DNA of 52,158 nucleotides, taken from NCBI GenBank assembly GCA_016873715.1, contig VGWF01000013.1, positions 1-52,158 of the forward strand, written 5' to 3'. This DNA is from Lentisphaerota bacterium. GTDB lineage: Bacteria; Verrucomicrobiota; Kiritimatiellia; PWTM01. This document shows, in pieces, positions 8,768 to 44,440 of this stretch. The notes under the pieces are model-generated. The model did no database searches. It saw only the letters and a list, made by a program, of their open reading frames with translations, and was not told the origin of the DNA. The number at the start of each line of letters is the position of its first letter. Positions within the stretch are counted from its first letter, which is position 1. The translations under genes and the position numbers were made by a program.

Positions 8768-10876
8768 ATGGCGGAGACAACCACGGGGGGCGCCGGCCGA
8801 TCCTGGCGCCGCATCGTGCTGGTCCTGGCCAACGTCGCCATGACGGCGGCGATCTTCGGTTATCTCTTCCGCCACATCCGACCGGGCGAGGTGCTCGCCC
8901 TTCTCCGCAACCTGGACCTCCGCGCGGTGGCCATGTTCGTGGTCCTGTCCCTGGGGGCCAGCCTGTTCCGCCTGTGGCGCTACCGGATCCTCCTGCGGCT
9001 CTCGGGCTACGACGCCCCGCCGCTGCCGCTGTTCCTGATGGTGCTGGTCCGCAACGCGTTCTCGGACCTCCTGCCCGCGCGGCTGGGGACGCTGATCGAC
9101 GTCTACTTCTTCACCACGCGCCTCGGCGTCCCCTTCCCCGCCGCCGCCTCGTGCTTCTCGCTGACCTTCATCTTCGAGATCCTCGCCCTCGCCCCGCTGA
9201 TCGCCCTCGCCGCGTGGCGCGCGGGCGCGGCGGGCACGCTGCCGGCCGGCGGCCTGCTGCTGGGCGGCCTGATCCTGCTGGCGGTCACCGGCGGCCTCGT
9301 CGCGCTGATGCCCTGGGGCTTCGGCCTCGCGGCGCGGCTGGCGGAGCGCCTGCTGCCGGCGCGCTGGGCGCTGCGGCGATGGGTGTCGGAAACGCTCGGC
9401 GCCATCGGCGGCGAGGTCCGGCGCGTGCAATCGGCCGGGCTGTACGGGCGCGTGCTGGCGCTCTCGGTGATGCTGCGCGTCGCGAAGTACGCCTCGCTCT
9501 ACGTCTTCCTGTTCGCGCTGCTCGCGCCGATGGGATACACGTGGGCGCAGCTCGACGCGCCGCGCGTGTTCCTCGGCCTGTGCGCCTCGGAGCTGGCGGC
9601 CAGCCTGCCCGTCTCCGGCATCGCCGGCTTCGGCGCCTACGAGGGCGCGTGGGCGGCCGTGTTCCAGTTGCTCGGGTTCCCGAAGGACATCGCGCAGGTG
9701 ACCAGCGTCGCGCACCACCTCTTCACGCAGGCCTACGGCTACGGGCTCGGCGGCCTGGCCCTCGTCGCCCTGCTGCTGCCGGTCTGGCGGCGGATGCGCG
9801 CCGCGCCGGCCGCGACGCCCGTCCGCGACCGCCCGGTCGCCTTCTACGCGAAGGTCGCCGCGACGGTCGCCGTCCTCGCCGCCGCCGAGCTCGCGCTTGC
9901 GGTCCTGCCCGCGCCGCGCGCGCACGCGGGCGGCGCGACCGACCGCCCCGGTCCCGCCGACGCCGCGCGGCGCGCGGACTTCGCCGCGGCCTTCGGGGGC
10001 GACCTGCTCTTCGACAGCACGCGCTCCGGAACCTTCGGCGTCTGGCGCATGTCGGCCGACGGCCTCCGCGCGGCCGCCGTCGCCGACACGCCGGCGCACG
10101 AGATGTACCCCGACCCCTCGCCCGACGGCCGCTGGATCGCCTACGCGCGCGCCGCGACCCTCGCCGCGAAGTCGCCCAGCGAGATCCGCGTCTGCCGTCC
10201 GGACGGCTCGGACGACCGCAAACTCGCCGACAACGGCACCTTCCCGACCTTCGGTCCCGACTCCGCCACCGTGTACTTCGAGCGCGACCGCCTCCGCGTG
10301 ATGGCCGGTCGCCTCGACGGCGGCGAGCCCCGCGAGGTCTTCCCCGGCCCCCATCGCGGCTGGCGCCATCACGTCGTGAAGCCGCGCGTCTCGCCCGACG
10401 GCCGCCGGGTCTCGTTCATCTCCAATCGCGGGAGCATGATCGGCTGGAGCGCATGGACCGCCGATCTCGCGTCCGGCGAGGCGGCCCGGCTCGGCGCCGG
10501 CTGCCAGCCCGGCTGGTTCCCGGACGGACGGCGCGTCGTGCACGTCGTCGAGAAGGGCATGAAGGCCTCCACCGGGATCGTCGCGCGTGATCTCCCCGCC
10601 GGCCCGCTGGCGGTTCTGCAGGATGCCGGCGACCCGCTCGGCCACGAGTACTTCCCCACCGTCACTCCCGACGGCCGCTGGCTGCTCTGGGGCGCGTGCC
10701 GCCCCGGCCAGCACGACCACCTCAGCCCGAAGTCCAACTACCAGGTCTTCGCGCGGGCGCTGCCGGACGGCGCGGCCGTCCGCCTCACGTTCGACGGATG
10801 GAACAACCGGTGGCCGAAGCGCATTCCCGCGCCCGGCGCCGGAACGGAAACCAGCACGAAAGGGAGCGGACCATGA
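8768..10876 (+). CDS. Fusion of LPG-synthase-type (UPF0104) membrane domain with a TolB-like beta-propeller
   Basis: 702 residues in two parts. Residues 1 to about 345 are a polytopic membrane domain of the lysylphosphatidylglycerol-synthase flippase / AglD type (VLANVAMTAAIFGYLF, ASLFRLWRYRILL, NAFSDLLPARLG, LPVSGIAGFGAYEGAWA). Another TM segment lies near 358-380. The remainder has at least four TolB/PD40-type blades (FDSTRSGTFGVWRMSADG, YPDPSPDGRWIAYAR, KPRVSPDGRRVSFISNRG, YFPTVTPDGRWLLWG) and would be periplasmic. The ribosome-binding site is GGAAGG. The stop overlaps the next start (ATGA), so translation is coupled to the Dabb and sulfatase genes. A role in moving or sensing a lipid-linked envelope component is an inference. 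Confidence 0.82.
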   Translation: MAETTTGGAGRSWRRIVLVLANVAMTAAIFGYLFRHIRPGEVLALLRNLDLRAVAMFVVLSLGASLFRLWRYRILLRLSGYDAPPLPLFLMVLVRNAFSDLLPARLGTLIDVYFFTTRLGVPFPAAASCFSLTFIFEILALAPLIALAAWRAGAAGTLPAGGLLLGGLILLAVTGGLVALMPWGFGLAARLAERLLPARWALRRWVSETLGAIGGEVRRVQSAGLYGRVLALSVMLRVAKYASLYVFLFALLAPMGYTWAQLDAPRVFLGLCASELAASLPVSGIAGFGAYEGAWAAVFQLLGFPKDIAQVTSVAHHLFTQAYGYGLGGLALVALLLPVWRRMRAAPAATPVRDRPVAFYAKVAATVAVLAAAELALAVLPAPRAHAGGATDRPGPADAARRADFAAAFGGDLLFDSTRSGTFGVWRMSADGLRAAAVADTPAHEMYPDPSPDGRWIAYARAATLAAKSPSEIRVCRPDGSDDRKLADNGTFPTFGPDSATVYFERDRLRVMAGRLDGGEPREVFPGPHRGWRHHVVKPRVSPDGRRVSFISNRGSMIGWSAWTADLASGEAARLGAGCQPGWFPDGRRVVHVVEKGMKASTGIVARDLPAGPLAVLQDAGDPLGHEYFPTVTPDGRWLLWGACRPGQHDHLSPKSNYQVFARALPDGAAVRLTFDGWNNRWPKRIPAPGAGTETSTKGSGP

Positions 10877-11274
10877 AGATGAAGCGGCGGGAGATCCTGG
10901 CGGGTGCGATGGGCGCGGCGGTGGCGGGCGCGGCGGGAACGGTCCGGGCGGCGGATCCCGCCCCGGCGAAACGCCTGCGGCACGTGGTGCTCTTCAAGTT
11001 CAAGGACGGCGCGGCCGAGGCCGACATCCGCGCGGTCGAGAACGCGTTCCGCGGCCTCGCGGTGAAGATCGACCTGATCCGCGAGTTCGAGTGGGGCACC
11101 AACAACAGCCCCGAGGGCCTCTCGCAGGGCTTCACCCACTGCTTCTTCGTCACCTTCGCGACCGCCGAGGCGCGCGACGCCTACCTCCCGCACCCCGACC
11201 ACAAGGCCTTCGTCGACGTGCTCAAGCCCGTCCTCGACAAGGTCCTCGTCGTCGACTACTGGGCGAAGCCGTGA
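10873..11274 (+). CDS. Exported Dabb (stress-responsive alpha/beta barrel) domain protein
   Basis: 133 residues: a Tat/Sec-like leader (MKMKRREILAGAMGAAVAGAAGTVRAA) and then one Dabb domain. The domain starts RLRHVVLFKFKDGAAEADI and ends with a HPDHKAFVDVLKPVLDKVLVVDYW block, both typical of the family. Dabb proteins are small dimeric alpha/beta barrels; exported ones are frequent in PVC and Bacteroidetes genomes next to catabolic genes, but their chemistry is rarely known. Overlaps the upstream gene by ATGA and the downstream sulfatase by GTGA, so all three are likely one operon. Confidence 0.87.
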   Translation: MKMKRREILAGAMGAAVAGAAGTVRAADPAPAKRLRHVVLFKFKDGAAEADIRAVENAFRGLAVKIDLIREFEWGTNNSPEGLSQGFTHCFFVTFATAEARDAYLPHPDHKAFVDVLKPVLDKVLVVDYWAKP

Positions 11275-12860
11275 GCCGCCGCACGGGGATCGCGGGGGGG
11301 CGCGCGCAGGCCGCCGCCCCCGCGCTGGCCTTCCTGCTCGCCGCGACGGCGCAGGCCGCCGCGCCGGCGAAGCCGAACATCCTGTTCGTCTTCTCCGACG
11401 ACCACTCGCTGCAGGCGATCGGCGCGTACGACACCTGGCTCTCGCCGTTCTGCCGCGAGCAGAAGGTGACGCCGAACATCGACCGCCTCGCCGGCGAGGG
11501 CGCGCTGTTCCGCAACAGCTTCTGCGGAACCTCGATCTGCTCACCCAGCCGCGCGGCGATCCTGACCGGTCTCCACGGCCACGCGAACGGCGTGCCGAAC
11601 CTCGGCATGACCGTCTGGCCGGGCACCTGGATGTTCCCGGACGCCATGCGCCAGGCCGGCTACCAGACCGCCGTGATCGGCAAGTGGCACCTCGGCAACC
11701 TGCCCGAGGGCTTCGACCACTGGCGCGTCCTCCCGGGCCAGGGCGCCTACTGGAACCCCGCCATGACCGGTCCCGACGGGCCGGAGAAGAACACCGGCTA
11801 CGCGACCGACGTCATCACCGACAAGGCCCTCGCGTGGCTCAAGGGACGCGACCCGGCGAAGCCGTTCCTGCTGATGGTCCACCACAAGGCGCCGCACCGG
11901 AACTGGACGCCGCCGCCGCGGCACTACGGCTGGCTGGCCGACGTGAAGATCCCGGAGCCCGCGACGCTGCTCGACGACTACGCGACCCGCGCCTCGCCGG
12001 CCCGCACGCAGAAGATGGAGATCGGCCGCGACATGACGCTCGAGAGCGACCTCAAGGTCGTCCCGCCCGACAAGGGCGCCCGCCCCGTGCCGCCCGAGGC
12101 CGCCGCCGCGTGGGACGCCGCGTTCAAGGCCCGCAACGAGGCGTTCCTGAAGAACCCGCCGGCGGGCGAGGCGCTGACGCGCTGGAAGTACCAGGAGTAC
12201 ATGAAGGACTACCTCCGCTGCGTGAAGGCGGTCGACGAGAGCGTCGGACGCCTCCTCGACGCGCTGGTGGAGGCGAAGGTCGACCGCAACACGGTCGTGA
12301 TCTACTCGTCCGACCAGGGCTTCTTCATGGGCGAGCACGGCTGGTTCGACAAGCGCTGGATCTACGAGGAATCGATCCACATGCCCTTCATCGTCCGCTG
12401 GCCCGGCGTCGTGAAGCCCGGCAGCCGGCCGGACGCGATGATCCAGAACATCGACTACGCCGCCACGCTCGTGGAGATCGCCGGCGGCAAGGTCCCGGAC
12501 GGGCTGCACGGGCGGTCCTTCCTGCCCATCCTGCGCGGGGAAACGCCGTCCGACTGGCGCACGAGCGTCTACTACCGCTATTTCGATCCCGGCCATGGCG
12601 TCGCCGCGCACTACGGCGTCCGCACCGCGGGCCACACGCTGGCGTACTACCCGAAGACGGACGAATGGGAGCTCTTCGACCTCGCGAAGGACCCGGCGCA
12701 GGTGCGCAACATCGTCGGCGACCCCGCCGCGGCAACGACCGTGGCGGACCTCAAGGCCGAACTCGCCCGGCTGCGCACTCTCTACCGCGACGACGGCTCC
12801 ATCCAGCCGCCGGCCGACGCCGCAACCGGCAAGGCGAAACGACCCGGGAAGAGGACGTGA
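11271..12860 (+). CDS. Sulfatase (arylsulfatase family S1)
   Basis: 529-residue alkaline-phosphatase-fold sulfatase. The formylglycine motif C-S-P-S-R begins at Cys90, followed by AAILTG. The N-terminal metal site is NILFVFSDDH, and VIGKWHLG, HHKAPHRNW and IYSSDQGFFMGEHGWFDKRW carry further conserved active-site residues. A signal peptide (ALAFLLAATAQAAA) points to the periplasm or outside. The start is GTG 11271, overlapping the Dabb stop. Activity needs a formylglycine-generating or anaerobic maturase enzyme, which is not in this window. Substrate is unknown; PVC bacteria use many such sulfatases on algal or host glycans. Confidence 0.94.
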   Translation: MSRRTGIAGGRAQAAAPALAFLLAATAQAAAPAKPNILFVFSDDHSLQAIGAYDTWLSPFCREQKVTPNIDRLAGEGALFRNSFCGTSICSPSRAAILTGLHGHANGVPNLGMTVWPGTWMFPDAMRQAGYQTAVIGKWHLGNLPEGFDHWRVLPGQGAYWNPAMTGPDGPEKNTGYATDVITDKALAWLKGRDPAKPFLLMVHHKAPHRNWTPPPRHYGWLADVKIPEPATLLDDYATRASPARTQKMEIGRDMTLESDLKVVPPDKGARPVPPEAAAAWDAAFKARNEAFLKNPPAGEALTRWKYQEYMKDYLRCVKAVDESVGRLLDALVEAKVDRNTVVIYSSDQGFFMGEHGWFDKRWIYEESIHMPFIVRWPGVVKPGSRPDAMIQNIDYAATLVEIAGGKVPDGLHGRSFLPILRGETPSDWRTSVYYRYFDPGHGVAAHYGVRTAGHTLAYYPKTDEWELFDLAKDPAQVRNIVGDPAAATTVADLKAELARLRTLYRDDGSIQPPADAATGKAKRPGKRT

Positions 12861-12911
12861 GACGCTGGGATGCGCTGACGTTCACGCGGGATCCGGGGTG
12901 CGGCACGGGTA

Positions 12912-13954
12912 GCCGCGGGGCTACGACCCGCGGCGCCGCGACGACCGCCACCCTCCTGGCACCCGCCGCGCCCACACGCGCCACGTCGTAGCCGTGGCGC
13001 CACCGGGGAGGGACAGAGAAGCTCGGCCCGTGGTGAGGCACGGGTAACCGCGGGGCTACGACCCGCGGCGCCGGGGCGACCGCCATCCGCCTGGAATCCG
13101 CCGCGCCCACACGCGCCACGTCGTAGCCGTGGCGCCACCGGGGAGGGACAGAGAAGCTCGGCCCGTGGTGAGGCACGGGTAGCCGCGGGGCTACGACCCG
13201 CGGCGCCGGGGCGACCGCCATCCGCCTGGAATCCGCCGCGCCCACACGCGCCACGTCGTAGCCGTGGCGCCACCGCGGAGGGACACGGAAGCTCGGCCCG
13301 TGGTGGGGCACGGGTAGCCGCGGGGCTACGACCCGCGGCGCCGGGACGACCGCCACCCGCCTGGCATCCGCCAAGTCCCACGCACGCCACGTCGTAGCCG
13401 TGGCGCCACCGGGGAGGGACAGAGAAGCTCGGTCCGTGGTGAAGCACGGGTAGCCGCGGGGCTACGACCCGCGGCACCGGGGCGACCGCCACCCTCCTGG
13501 CATCCGCCGCGTCCCACGCACGCCACGTCGTAGCCGTGGCGCCACCGCGGAGGGACAGAGAAGCTCGGTCCGTGGTGGGGCACGGGTAGCCGCGGGGCTA
13601 CGACCCGCGGCGCCGCGACGACCGCCATCCGCCTGGAATCCGCCGCGTCCCATGCGCCACGTCGTAGCCGTGGCGCCACCGCGGAGGGACGGAGAAGCTC
13701 GGCCCGTGGTGGAGCTCGGGTAGCCGCGGGGCTACGACCCGCGGCACCGGGGCGACCGCCACCCTCCTGGCACTCGCCGCACCCCATGCGCCACGTCGTA
13801 GCCGTGGCGCCACCGGGGAGGGACAGAGAAGCTCGGTCCGTGGTGAGGCACGGGTAGCCGCGGGGCTACGACCCGCGGCACCGGGGCGACCGCCACCCCC
13901 CTGGCATCCGCCGCGTCCCACGCACGCCACGTCGTAGCCGTGGCGCCACCGGGG
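12912..13954. repeat. Eight-copy tandem array of 135-bp REP doublets
   Basis: Each unit holds two hairpins in opposite orientation. The first has stem GCCGCGGG / CCCGCGGC around loop GCTACGA; first bases are 12912, 13047 (one stem mismatch), 13182, 13317, 13453, 13589, 13723 and 13857. The second, read on the minus strand, has stem GCGCCACG / CGTGGCGC around the same loop GCTACGA (for example 12978-13000). Both align over 27 nt with tags GGTAGC and GGTGGC. Units are joined by a linker containing GGGACAGAGAAGC. Periods are 135, 135, 135, 136, 136, 134 and 134. The array fills the gap between the sulfatase gene and the convergent DUF4189 gene and touches the latter's stop codon. Confidence 0.92.
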
Positions 13955-14758
13955 TCAGTGCACCACGCCGTTGCTGCAGAAGCTGACCGCGATCTTCGCG
14001 TTCTTCGTCCGCTTCGTGCATGCCTCCAGCGCGTTTCGCTCGGCGTCCGCGCGATTGCCGGCGTGACCCCAGCCGAAGACGCCCTTGTCGTCGCCCAGGG
14101 CCAGGGCGAGCCAGCAATCCTCGGCCTGTGCGACGACCTTCGCGTCCGGCGCGTTGCAGTATCGAACCGCCTTGAACGGAGCCTCGCGGGCGCCCCCGGT
14201 GGAGTATCCCCAGCGGCCGGTGGACTCGGAAAAGGCGATCGCGCCGCCGGTCCGCATCTGGCGTGCGTCGATGCTGTAGACGACCCTGGGTTTCGCCACG
14301 CCCTGCTTGGCGGCCCCCTCAAGGGCGAACCGTTCGGCCGCGGCCTGGTCCGGCCCCCAGCCCACGCCCCACTTGAAGTCCTTCGACTCCTTCGGATCTC
14401 CCAGGGCCAGCGCGCACCAGCCGTTGGCGCAGAGGACAACGGTGCGCGCGTCCGGGGCATTGCACTTGTCGCGGGCCGCGCGGGACGCGACGTCGAAGGC
14501 GATGTAGGAGCAGCTGGCGGCGTACTTGTGCGTGGACGGCGATACGGCGATGGCGGCCCAGTAGTCGGTCTTGTCCCAGTCGGAGGCGTCGCGCCGATTG
14601 CGGTCCTTCCACTCGACGTATCCCTGCACCGGCCCGTCGGCCGGGGCGCGCCGGTTCCAGACGTCGGCGGGCACCGCGTTCTCGATGAGGTCGACGCCGG
14701 GCGCCGGGCCCGTGAGGATCCACACCGCCAGAGCGACCGGCAGGAACCGCGTGTTCAT
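13955..14758 (-). CDS. Secreted protein with DUF4189-like repeats
   Basis: 267 residues with signal peptide (FLPVALAVWILTGPAPG). Three related segments follow the pattern WAAIAVSPSTHKYA / WCALALGDPKESKDFKWGVGWG / WLALALGDDKGVFGWGHAGN, each followed by a Cys near an A-x-A-E-R/K helix. This is the layout of DUF4189, a small disulfide-containing domain of unknown function. Start at ATG 14758 because GGAGGGG lies 8 bases upstream; another in-frame ATG at 14764 is too close to it. The gene is bracketed by REP doublets: the eight-copy array begins at its stop codon and a single doublet lies upstream at 14995-15082. Confidence 0.78.
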   Translation of the reverse strand: MNTRFLPVALAVWILTGPAPGVDLIENAVPADVWNRRAPADGPVQGYVEWKDRNRRDASDWDKTDYWAAIAVSPSTHKYAASCSYIAFDVASRAARDKCNAPDARTVVLCANGWCALALGDPKESKDFKWGVGWGPDQAAAERFALEGAAKQGVAKPRVVYSIDARQMRTGGAIAFSESTGRWGYSTGGAREAPFKAVRYCNAPDAKVVAQAEDCWLALALGDDKGVFGWGHAGNRADAERNALEACTKRTKNAKIAVSFCSNGVVH

Positions 14759-14994
14759 GGGCATTCCCCTCCGGATGTATCCCACCGGAGCCGGCGCACC
14801 GCAACCCGCCGTGCGTCGCACCCATCCCGACCCTGCACCCGCACGGCGGGCGTTCGCGGCGGAGGCCGTCCCGGCCCGGGGCCATTCTACCCCACGTCCC
14901 GCCGACACGGAACCCCATCCCGGCGCCCGCGATGCCCGGCCCCGCCGTTCTGCGCGAGGGGGACACCGACGTTGTGCCGGTGGCAGCACGGGTA

Positions 14995-15082
14995 GCCGCG
15001 GGGCTACGACCCGCGGCGCCGGGACGACCGCCATCCGCCTGGCACCCGCCGCGTCCCATACGCCACGTCGTAGCCGTGGCGC
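14995..15082. repeat. Solitary REP doublet of the array family
   Basis: A ninth copy of the 12912-13954 unit: first hairpin at 14995-15017, second at 15061-15081, with the same loop in inverted orientation. It lies in the 515-base gap between the DUF4189 gene and cinA. That gap also holds a heptamer repeat at 15221-15248 and otherwise nothing I can identify. Confidence 0.9.
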
Positions 15083-15220
15083 CACCGGGAAGCTCTATGC
15101 GCGCCTCCATTCGGTTGTCCCCATTCGGTTGTCATCCTCCGGCCGGCCCGCCGGTCCGTCACGAATCCGGCGGCCGCTTCGTGCTTTCCGCGGCGCTTCC
15201 GCCGTGACTTCGGGTCCGGA

Positions 15221-15248
15221 ATTGGCTATTGGCGATTGGCTGTTGGCC
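15221..15248. repeat. Heptamer short tandem repeat
   Basis: Four contiguous 7-nt units: ATTGGCT, ATTGGCG, ATTGGCT, GTTGGCC. It ends about 30 bases before the cinA start. Base composition is noticeably less GC-rich than the surroundings. Confidence 0.7.
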
Positions 15249-15279
15249 ATGCGGGCGGAGCCCGCGCCGGAGTGAGATC

Positions 15280-16515
15280 ATGATCGCCGCCGAACTGGTC
15301 GCCACGGGCACGGAACTTCTCATCGGCCGCACGGTGAACACGCACGCGCAGCGGCTCGGGCGCGCGCTGTCTCCGCTGGGGATCGCGCTGGAACGCGAGA
15401 CGACGCTGCGCGACGACCGTCCCGCCATCGCCGCGGCGGTGCGCGCCGCGCTGACGCGCTCGCAGGTGGTCTTCGTCACCGGCGGCCTCGGGCCGACGTG
15501 CGACGACCTGACCCGCGAGGCGCTGGCCGACGCGCTGGGCCGGAAGATCGTCCGCGACACCGCCGCGCTGTCCCGGATCCGCGCCCGCTGCGTGCGCCTG
15601 GGCCAGTCCATGACCGACTCGCGCGCGCGCCAGGCGGACATCCTCGAGGGCGCCGCCGCCCTCTCCAACTCCGTCGGCGCCGCGCCGGGCCAGCGGATCG
15701 AGCTCGGCGGCGGACGCGTCCTGCTCGTGCTGCCAGGCCCGCCGCGCGAATTCGAGGCGATCCTCGCCGAGCACGTCCTCCCCTGGCTGCGCGGGCACCT
15801 GCATGCGCCCGTCGCGCCGGAGCGGATCCTGATGGTCTGCGGGCTGGGCGAGTCCGACGTCATCGAGCGCTTCGCGGCGGCCGGTTTCGATCCCGCCCCG
15901 CTCGACCTGGCCTACTGCGCGGGGCCGGGCCAGCTCGAGGTGCGGCTGACCGGAAAGCCCGGCGAGGAGTCCGTCGTGACATCCGCGGCGGCGCGCGCGC
16001 TGGCGGTCCTCGGCGACCACGTTTACGCGGAGTCCCGCGAGGATCTCGTCGCCGCCGTCGGCCGCCGCCTCGAGGCGCGCGGGGCGACGGTCGCGACGGC
16101 GGAATCGTGCACCGGCGGACTCGTCGCCCAGGTCCTCACGTCCGTCCCCGGCAGCTCGGCGTGGTACCGCGGATCGATCGTCGCCTACGCCAACGACGCG
16201 AAGACCTCGCTCCTCGGCGTGCCGGCCGACCTGATCGCGGCCCACGGCGCGGTCAGCGAACCGGTCGCCCGCGCGATGGCCGAGGGCGCGCGCCGCGCGC
16301 TCGGGACCGACTTCGCCCTTGCGACGACCGGCGTCGCCGGGCCCGACGGCGCGACGCCGGAGAAGCCGGTCGGCCTGGTCTGGTGGGCGCTGGCCGACGC
16401 GAAGGGGACGGTCGCCCGCACGCGGCGGTTCCCCGGCGACCGCGACCTCATCCGCCGCTGGACCGCCCAGTACGCCCTCGACCTGCTGCGCCGCCGTCTC
16501 GACGGCACGGCCTGA
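15280..16515 (+). CDS. cinA: CinA: competence/damage-inducible protein, nicotinamide-nucleotide amidase
   Basis: 411 residues, two domains. The N-terminal MoCF-like domain opens AAELVATGTELLIGRTVNTHAQ and contains FVTGGLGPTCDDLTREALA; it is linked to ADP-ribose / nucleotide pyrophosphatase activity. The C-terminal CinA domain (from about residue 255) contains TAESCTGGLVAQVLTSVPGSSAWYRGSIVAY and TGVAGPDGATPEKPVGLVWWA; it deamidates nicotinamide mononucleotide in pyridine-nucleotide salvage. Length is normal. It heads the cinA-thpR-recA order seen in many bacteria, with 124 bases before the next gene. Confidence 0.96.
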   Translation: MIAAELVATGTELLIGRTVNTHAQRLGRALSPLGIALERETTLRDDRPAIAAAVRAALTRSQVVFVTGGLGPTCDDLTREALADALGRKIVRDTAALSRIRARCVRLGQSMTDSRARQADILEGAAALSNSVGAAPGQRIELGGGRVLLVLPGPPREFEAILAEHVLPWLRGHLHAPVAPERILMVCGLGESDVIERFAAAGFDPAPLDLAYCAGPGQLEVRLTGKPGEESVVTSAAARALAVLGDHVYAESREDLVAAVGRRLEARGATVATAESCTGGLVAQVLTSVPGSSAWYRGSIVAYANDAKTSLLGVPADLIAAHGAVSEPVARAMAEGARRALGTDFALATTGVAGPDGATPEKPVGLVWWALADAKGTVARTRRFPGDRDLIRRWTAQYALDLLRRRLDGTA

Positions 16516-18401: not shown

Positions 18402-18842
18402 CTAGGGCTTCGGCCGGACCGCGTCGGCCGCGTTCTGGAGCGCATCGGCCGTGGCGCCGGCCGCCTTCTGCGCCGCTTCCTTGGTCGCATCGGCCGCCTT
18501 GCCGGCGGCTTCCTTGGTGGCCTCGGCCGCCTTCGCGGCCGTTTCCTTGGTGGTCTCCACGGCCTGGCCGACCGCATCCTTGGTGGCGTCCGCCGCCTTG
18601 CTCACGGCCTCCTTGGTTGCATCCGCCGCCTTCGCGGCGGCGTCCGCGGCCGTGCCGGCAGCCTGCTCCGTGGCCTCGACCGCCTTGGTGACGGCCGATC
18701 CGACGGCTTGGCCGACCTTCTCGGCGACGGCGGAGGCCGCCGCGGCGGGCTCCGGCTTGGGTTCGGCGGGCTTCGGGCCGCAGCCGGCCGCCAGGAGGGA
18801 CAGGGATACCGCCGCGCATCCGAACAGAACGATCGTCTTCAT
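18402..18842 (-). CDS. LEA-like Ala/Lys-rich lipoprotein
   Basis: 146 residues. Signal peptide with lipobox LAAGC (Cys21), then a Pro/Glu linker and about 100 residues of imperfect 11-mer repeats ([44 protein letters not shown]) that would form an amphipathic alpha-helix. This resembles group 3 LEA proteins and apolipoprotein-like helices, which protect membranes or proteins during desiccation or osmotic stress; that role is an inference. Being a lipoprotein, it should be sorted by the Lol system encoded at 39.4-41.5 kb. Low complexity makes database matches unreliable. Confidence 0.8.
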
Positions 18843-38102: not shown

Positions 38103-39065
38103 ATGAGACATGCGAGACTCAAGCCTGACTGGCGGGACACCTGGCACCATTGCTACAACCACGCCGTCGGCACCGCCGAGGACCGGCCGTTTGGCCCGGC
38201 CGAGAAGGAGCAGTTCGTCCGTATCCTCATGCGGATGGCCGACTTCTACTGCGTGAGGATCGTCGTCTATCAGGTCATGTCCAACCACTGGCACATCCTG
38301 CTTCGGGCACCCGAGGCCCTGCCGTCGGAGGAGGAGACCATCCGGCGGTTCGAAGCCTTCCACCACGGCAAGCGCCGGCTGATGCCGGGCAGCAAGCTCT
38401 GCGCCCAGTGGCGGGAACGGCTGCGGGATGTGAGCTGGTGCATGCGCCATCTGCAGCACCTCTACACCGCATGGTTCAACCGGAGCCGGCCGGTCCGGCG
38501 CAAAGGCACGATCTGGGCCGGACGGTTCAAGAACACGGTCTTGGACACGGGTGCGGCGCTGTGGGCCTGCTGGGCCTACATCGAGCGCAACCCGGTTCGC
38601 GCGAAGATGGTGGCCGATCCCGGGGACTATCGATTCTGCTCCTACGGCGCCTGGGCCCAGACGGGCCGGCACCCGTTCGAGGAGGCCGTGCGGGAGGTGC
38701 TTCTCCCGGCGCTGCCGGAGCATCTCAACAAACTGGGCCTCAAGGCGCTGCGGGCGACGCTGGCCGCCGAGTTCGCGCGCAAGGCGGAGGAGGACAAGGC
38801 CCGGGCGTCCGCCTCGGCCACTTCAGCAGCGCCGCTGACGGAGGACGCTGCGCCCGCGGAGGCGTTCACGCTGTCGGCCCGCCGGCGGGTGCGGCACTGG
38901 GTGGACGGCCTGGTGATCGGCTCGGAGCTGTTCATCCGCGAGACGATGCGGCGCGTCCGCACCGAGGAGGAGGTCGCCCGCCACCGTCTGGCCCGCGCAG
39001 AGGTCGCGGCCGCCGGTCAGGCCCCCGTCTGCTGCTGGCGCCGACTGCGCGTGACGCGCGCCTGA
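38103..39065 (+). CDS. REP-associated tyrosine transposase (RAYT, Y1/IS200-like)
   Basis: 320 residues. The HUH motif is HWH (His62, His64) in VMSNHWHILLRAP, preceded by the typical opening WHHCYNHAVG. The likely catalytic Tyr is in HLYTAWFNRSRPVRRKGTIWAGRFKN (Tyr121), and YIERNPVRAKMVADPGDYRFCSYGAW is characteristic of RAYTs. A C-terminal extension (RRRVRHWVDGLVIGSELFIRETMRR) is found in a longer subgroup. RAYTs cut and join single-stranded REP hairpins and are usually single-copy, domesticated genes. It is flanked by inverted GGGACAGAGA repeats and shares its genome with three REP-like families seen in this window. Confidence 0.93.
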   Translation: MRHARLKPDWRDTWHHCYNHAVGTAEDRPFGPAEKEQFVRILMRMADFYCVRIVVYQVMSNHWHILLRAPEALPSEEETIRRFEAFHHGKRRLMPGSKLCAQWRERLRDVSWCMRHLQHLYTAWFNRSRPVRRKGTIWAGRFKNTVLDTGAALWACWAYIERNPVRAKMVADPGDYRFCSYGAWAQTGRHPFEEAVREVLLPALPEHLNKLGLKALRATLAAEFARKAEEDKARASASATSAAPLTEDAAPAEAFTLSARRRVRHWVDGLVIGSELFIRETMRRVRTEEEVARHRLARAEVAAAGQAPVCCWRRLRVTRA

Positions 39066-44216: not shown

Positions 44217-44229
44217 GCCGGGGACGGGC

Positions 44230-44440
44230 GCTGGGCGCTGGGTTCTGGCTCTGGGTTCTGGGTGCTGGGTGCTGGCTCTGGGTTCTGGGTGCTGGGTGCT
44301 GGGTTCTGGGTTCTGGGTTCTGGGCTCTGGGTGCTGGGCGCTGGGTTCTGGCTCTGGGCTCTGGGCTCTGGGTTCTGGCTCTGGGTTCTGGGTGCTGGGT
44401 GCTGGGTTCTGGGTTCTGGGCTCTGGGTGCTGGGTGCTGG
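44230..44440 (+). repeat. Heptamer minisatellite KCTGGGY with G-quadruplex potential
   Basis: About 31 units of 7 nt, almost all TCTGGGT, GCTGGGT, TCTGGGC or GCTGGGC, with occasional 6-nt units (TCTGGC or GCTGGC). The plus strand therefore carries long runs of GGG spaced by four bases, the classical G-quadruplex pattern, and almost no A. It begins 13 bases after the DAHP synthase stop and ends about 170 bases before the next start. It is the longest heptamer locus in the window. Confidence 0.92.

Follow-up and report, generated by a model that had tools for sequence, protein, structure and literature searches.

REP sequences and their RAYT proteins are domesticated transposons, and the rules by which the two recognize each other are known from three biochemical models. 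REPs, REPINs and BIME-2 clusters with a RAYT are thus a known kind of element; what is new at the locus described here is the REP family itself. REPs of the GTAG superfamily, as described in PMC3733652, are extragenic and have a stem of 6-13 bp with a GT[A/G]G tag at its foot; they form head-to-head dimers 20-100 bp apart, including heterodimers, and clusters of dimers reiterated in tandem together with their flanks. The present locus shares these features. Relative to that account of 24 families, the doublets here are strictly heterodimers of two hairpins (H1 and H2). Among the genomes searched, the GCTAYGA loop with these stem pairs was found in this one only.

In E. coli BIME-2 with TnpA-REP/yafM (PMC2817692, PMC8266576, PDB 4ER8), two REPs of one family alternate in tandem, the RAYT gene is flanked by BIMEs, the tag is GTAG and a mismatch lies inside the hairpin, all as in the present case; however, the mismatch here is next to the loop, and conservation falls on the loop end. 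Further biochemical marks of these classes are binding or cleavage by DNA gyrase, IHF or Pol I for BIME-2, and cutting of the cognate REP close to a CT dinucleotide for RAYT/TnpA-REP. REPINs of Pseudomonas fluorescens SBW25 (PMC3116915) resemble ours as dispersed inverted doublets, tandem clusters with flanks, alternating GI-GIII arrays and clusters beside RAYTs. They differ in number (1,422 hairpins, against 90 here) and in the length of the doublet array (4, against 8 here), and strict heterodimers are a feature of our family. Group 3 REPtrons of Stenotrophomonas and Marinomonas have perfect basal stems, as here, but their loops are GCT and TTTA rather than C-TRY-G (PMC8266576). Loop bases were essential for in vitro cleavage in two group-3 systems, and GTAG was crucial in E. 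coli (PMC8266576).

The window (the whole stretch of 52,158 nucleotides analysed) is contig C13 of a 5.13-Mb genome in 289 contigs that is 97.6% complete. It contains eight tandem head-to-head REP doublets with tags outside at 12909-13949 (+), each with H1 on the + strand and H2 on the - strand. Doublet 1 (12909-13003) consists of H1 at 12909-12934, a spacer of 43 and H2 at 12978-13003. It is followed by doublets 2 (13044-13138; H1 13044-13069 with tag GTAA, H2 13113-13138), 3 (13179-13273; H1 13179-13204, H2 13248-13273), 4 (13314-13409; H1 13314-13339, H2 13384-13409), 5 (13450-13545; H1 13450-13475, H2 13520-13545), 6 (13586-13679; H1 13586-13611, H2 13654-13679), 7 (13720-13813; H1 13720-13745, H2 13788-13813) and 8 (13854-13949; H1 13854-13879, H2 13924-13949). 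Successive H1 starts are 135, 135, 135, 136, 136, 134 and 134 bp apart (period 134-136 bp), H1 and H2 are separated by 42-44 nt within the doublets of the window, and neighboring doublets by 40 nt. A ninth doublet stands alone at 14992-15085 (H1 14992-15017, +; H2 15060-15085, -). Tandem Repeats Finder reported 12893-13954 with period 135, 7.9 copies and a score of 1726. The eight doublets of the initial annotation are real, and its coordinates, period and loop are correct. At ≤3 mismatches the H1 core had 40 matches in the genome vs. 2 for a reversed-pattern control, and the H2 core had 51 vs. 0; chance is therefore excluded as the source of the hairpin family. An Rfam search of the array matched no family.

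H1 reads GTAG CCGCGGG GCTACGA CCCGCGG and H2 reads GTGG CGCCACG GCTACGA CGTGGCG (tag, 5′ arm, loop, 3′ arm). Across the 90 copies in the genome the tag is GTAG or GTGG in 87; the second H1 of the window has a G-to-A change in its tag. The inner 7-bp stem is paired in 629 of 630 cells and broken in one, in a scan that took copies with ≤3 mismatches; broken stems were noted by eye in a few decayed copies. Changes in the stem thus do not break pairing as often as they keep it. The last base of H2 varies among its 51 copies (C in 27, T in 22, A in 2), so the outermost, eighth pair is unconserved and the conserved stem is 7 bp. Pairing had been called fully preserved, which is correct for the inner seven pairs but not for the eighth, where four of the nine H2 copies in the window have T. 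Compensated change was also seen within the genome: in 5 of 39 H1 copies, CCGCGGG/CCCGCGG has become CCGCAGG/CCTGCGG, a G-C to A-T replacement on both sides at one stem position. Perfect H1-type stems throughout the genome always enclose GCTACGA or GCTATGA; one near-copy on C65 has another loop.

The sequence GCTACGA was correctly reported as a 7-nt loop, but is better read, from the sequences compared, as a G.A mismatch, a C-G pair and a TAC triloop. The C-G pair is invariant in 18 distinct hairpins from four genera, and in minimum-free-energy folding as DNA it appears in some of the hairpins. Read in this manner, the hairpins fit the "long hairpin" REPs of PMC6006769, in which a small bulge and a short upper stem top a basal stem of 7-20.

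A search of the genome for these hairpins revealed 90 (39 H1 and 51 H2) at ~17 places, with a clear fall to background beyond the family. Alternating H1 and H2 in tandem, the arrangement that defines BIME-2, is present on C13 (period 135 bp), C6 (150 bp), C206 (129 bp), C215 (~141 bp), C71 (93 bp), C117 (93-106 bp) and C76 (182 bp and more); array lengths are minimal values because several arrays run into contig ends. Lone doublets occur on C14, C27 and C53 and at C13:14992; C31, C42, C54, C65, C133 and C188 carry H2 singly or pairs in partial decay. The doublet is therefore not confined to the window, and an inverted REP pair is the dispersed unit, as in REPINs. The ninth copy had been taken to show that the doublet also moves alone. 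It is weak evidence, lying 1 kb from the array and having the same spacer; the lone doublets on C14, C27 and C53 are better. The hairpins have the tag at the 5′ foot of the stem, a stem within 7-20 bp and many extragenic copies, as do REPs of the GTAG superfamily. Outside this genome, the H1/H2 core was absent from 37 relatives, 8 of them of the same family, save for one isolated match with two mismatches. The core loop-tag pattern gave no more than background-level matches in 19 relatives, and exact-pattern scans of genome-contig and viral-contig collections found none.

All 38 head-to-head doublets in the genome are H1-H2 heterodimers with tags outside; these are not 38 independent events, since the heterodimers of the genome descend from one ancestral doublet. 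Across places, H1 is 97% and H2 95% identical, and the inner spacers can be aligned with 66% identity. Each array has outer spacers of its own, apart from C6 and C13, which have the same one, and C71 and C117, which have a common 9-nt one; the periods of 93, 129, 135, 141, 150 and 182 bp differ with these local spacers. The simplest history is that one ancestral heterodimer was dispersed and then multiplied locally together with its local flank. We considered whether the array might instead be a passive tandem repeat, an accidental duplication grown by slippage, with hairpin conservation reflecting merely recent origin or gene conversion. Units within the window array diverge by ~9%, a figure that increases weakly with the distance between them, and slippage or unequal exchange produces such a pattern. 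However, hairpins that are 95-97% identical while the spacers between them are at 66%, arrays at several places with different outer spacers, compensated stem changes and a RAYT gene between arrays make a purely passive origin hardly credible.

The RAYT was detected at C117:14729-15061 by a search with profile NF047646. The gene (C117:14462-15100, 213 aa) lies between two arrays of the same REP, at 14121-14451 and 15100-15337, and is thus flanked on both sides, as in a REPtron; in this draft assembly of metagenome type, the locus is close to the end of its contig. Its ATG is ~10 bp past the upstream H2, and its TAG stop codon is within the GTAG tag of the downstream H2. NF047646 was the sole family matched, with 70.5 bits (E 1.3e-19), which does not reach the curated cut-off of 80 bits; on the basis of motifs, profile match and REP flanks we nevertheless file it as a RAYT. 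The motifs are intact (HVH for HUH, and YIRNNP for the Y motif), and the pattern is kept in relatives. A profile of the RAYT clade matched only E. coli TnpA-REP (4ER8, E 9.6e-9) among solved structures. In each of the 14 aligned relatives, E. coli W94, E100, H101 and R104 are matched by W, D, H and R, and the position of Q95 is A in the C117 RAYT. PMC6006769 counts W94, E100, H101 and R104 among the residues conserved where GTAG is recognized, with D instead of E in subclasses 2.5 and 2.7. In its HVH and YIRNNP motifs, its 213 aa and its long REPs, the C117 RAYT resembles TnpA-Y1 subclass 2.7 of that study more than Group 3 REPtrons. A PF01797 search of the genome found three Y1 transposases and missed the C117 RAYT. 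None of the other RAYT-like loci in this genome has REPs of the H1/H2 type beside it. One of them is a second RAYT-like reading frame in the window, at 38199-38639 (NF047646, 42 bits), with no H1/H2 REP or clear GT[A/G]G repeat hairpin adjoining it.

The identity of the repeats as a REP/REPIN family with its own RAYT is close to certain. We further hold, with high confidence, that the array is a BIME-2-like tandem cluster of GTAG-superfamily REPs, organized as REPINs, whose cognate RAYT/TnpA-REP is encoded at C117:14462-15100. The protein that reads loop and tag is, judging from these gene and hairpin sequences, very probably the RAYT between the two arrays.

Of the 346 genomes of the class that were searched, 106 have relatives of the RAYT. 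Within 450 bp of the best 30 RAYT loci there are 84 GT[A/G]G hairpins, vs. 1.55 in shuffled flanks; ~20 of these 30 loci have hairpins beside them, and ten were scored as having none. The same seven-base loop is found on other stems in G040 (GCCGGGC, GCCGCGC) and G049 (GGCGGGC, GGCGGCC, GTCGCGC), and G138 has stem GTCCGCG with loop ACTRYGG. The C-TRY-G triloop sits on longer stems in G097, G180 and G307. A second large loop class is TCY or TTCY, and one relative has CCY. On the RAYT tree, loop class changes 9 times, vs. 16.9 for shuffled labels (0 of 200 shuffles as low); among labelled rows there are 4 changes, the least possible being 3. For the 18 distinct hairpins of the seven-base class, double changes occurred at all seven pairs while 99.2% of cells remained paired (1 of 126 unpaired). 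Double-changed cells numbered 52, vs. 19.6 after shuffling, and the covariation score was 1.02, vs. 0.24 for shuffled and ≤0.30 for slid alignments; the rows are related, so this score is not a probability. The loop is thus kept while the stem changes, in other genera as well as in this genome, and stems remain paired, which bears out the earlier proposals that stem changes are compensated and that fold, loop and tag matter.

Stems in the four genera with 7-nt loops are no more alike than shuffled ones (0.41 vs. 0.43), except for G040 and G049, whose RAYTs are sisters; stem freedom rests on these few genera. The T(T)CY class retains a common stem core (0.59 vs. 0.31 shuffled), so stem freedom is unsupported there. 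The separation of a kept loop from a free stem across genera is the most useful part of this analysis. The ~20 RAYT relatives, spread over many families of a single class and accompanied by flanking REPs, amount to a natural experiment in which loop class tracks the enzyme tree and stems vary yet pair; it predicts which bases matter.

What keeps the loop fixed could also be DNA-DNA or RNA-RNA contacts instead of a protein, either a pseudoknot between tag GTAG and loop CTAC or kissing between the complementary loops of the two partners. GTAG/CTAC complementarity is present in both hairpins, and the loop variants CTAC, CTAT, CTGC and CTGT all pair with GTRG if G.T is allowed. However, chance alone should place the complement of the tag in a 7-nt loop in ~1 of 64 cases, every loop variant is a transition, the most frequent type of mutation, and complementarity between loops is automatic once inverted copies have the same loop. 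Nor do the T(T)CY and CCY loops beside related RAYTs pair with their own tags. We consider such contacts a very unlikely reason for the fixed loop.

Protein reading would explain the arrangement as follows. On single-stranded DNA (the lagging-strand template or a transient cruciform), the REP would fold into a 7-bp stem, a G.A mismatch, a C-G pair and a TAC triloop. Almost indifferent to the sequence of the stem, the RAYT would dock on the loop end and on the GT[A/G]G tag, and its HUH/Y site would nick nearby DNA, so that the doublet is dispersed into extragenic DNA. The doublet and some flank may then be multiplied in tandem by slippage, unequal exchange or repeated RAYT processing, with flanks that differ by place. 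Mobilisation by the C117 RAYT and reading of loop plus tag are interpretations that we regard as well supported, in part by biochemistry on other RAYTs; cleavage itself we infer.

Sharing of loop and tag by the two partners would allow one enzyme to read both, and their different stems would prevent mutual pairing into a long, unstable inverted repeat. Two stem types in one regular array had appeared unusual. This did not hold up: of 20 close inverted pairs in nine further genomes, 19 differ in stem and share the loop class (the pair in G303 differs only marginally), so differing stems with a shared loop are the rule in the class, and E. coli BIME-2 is alike. More than one REP subfamily surrounds nearly half of RAYT genes (PMC6006769). 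In PMC3733652, heterodimers are reported in many REP families, their preponderance is said to have no obvious explanation, and protection from SbcCD-type clearance of long inverted repeats is suggested. It is possible, although we put it forward tentatively, that the loop end and the GT[A/G]G tag are all that RAYTs read throughout the class, that stems drift while paired, and that heterodimers are kept by selection against long inverted repeats. If true, this combination would answer the question of PMC3733652 on the predominance of heterodimers. The cross-genus comparison makes the old question why paired REPs have different stems directly testable.

The array lies between two converging genes, assigned like the other neighboring genes from Pfam matches. 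A sulfatase gene (10587-12860, +; PF00884, PF16347) ends 48 bp ahead of the array, and a DUF4189-domain gene (13955-14758, -; PF13827) has its stop codon 5 bp beyond doublet 8. The lone ninth doublet is upstream of the DUF4189 gene and of a + strand ORF that we take to be cinA-like by name (relatives were found; there was no Pfam match). On C206, C71 and C215 one edge of the array is no more than ~60 bp from the 3′ end of a Pfam-supported gene, and among the copies checked no element was seen to interrupt such a gene. This setting, together with the converging genes of the window, would suit an array kept for the host as a bidirectional terminator, an mRNA 3′-end stabilizer or a gyrase site, with its hairpins conserved for that function. 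However, a terminator or RNA role needs neither a single loop sequence nor a DNA tag, and it fails to explain why a RAYT lies between arrays and why the same loop recurs next to RAYT relatives from other genera. Two elements, the C27 doublet and the lone copy at 14992, sit in 5′ regions, and the doublet folds no better than shuffled sequences (z -0.84 as RNA). Host function as the reason for conservation is thus rather unlikely. Under RAYT-driven dispersal, arrays at gene 3′ ends may also act as mRNA 3′ hairpins or as gyrase or terminator sites, as E. coli BIMEs do, probably as a by-product; BIMEs commonly have a 3′-end setting, and the array may play a part at 3′ ends or in supercoiling. Integron attC, CRISPR and ncRNA arrays were also considered and set aside, as tag, loop, dispersal and RAYT do not fit them.

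Repeats of other sequence were noted beside these elements. CCATTCGGTTGTCC occurs twice at 15107-15133, beside the lone ninth doublet, and similar CCCCATTYGKTTGYC motifs are near REPs on C42 and C76, perhaps as another dispersed repeat. On C42 (L040:3312-3760), three H2 are in direct orientation; an inverted repeat around GTCTTACATCTG...CAGATGTAAGAC is nearby with recurrent GATGGGGACAGAGATG motifs, another repeat family. Elsewhere in the window, a 33/66/99-bp tandem repeat at 18451-18665 (GCCGCCTTCCGCGCCGCTTCCTTGGTGGCATCC) is probably inside a gene for a repetitive protein, and a minisatellite at 44226-44440 comprises ~30 copies of the 7-bp CTGGGTT within a 103-bp higher-order repeat. In G040 (L161, L163, L165, L184), four REP copies have the 3′ arm replaced straight past the loop by nearly the same sequence (AGCTGTGAAA or CGCTGTGAAA), as if cut or joined at the loop end.
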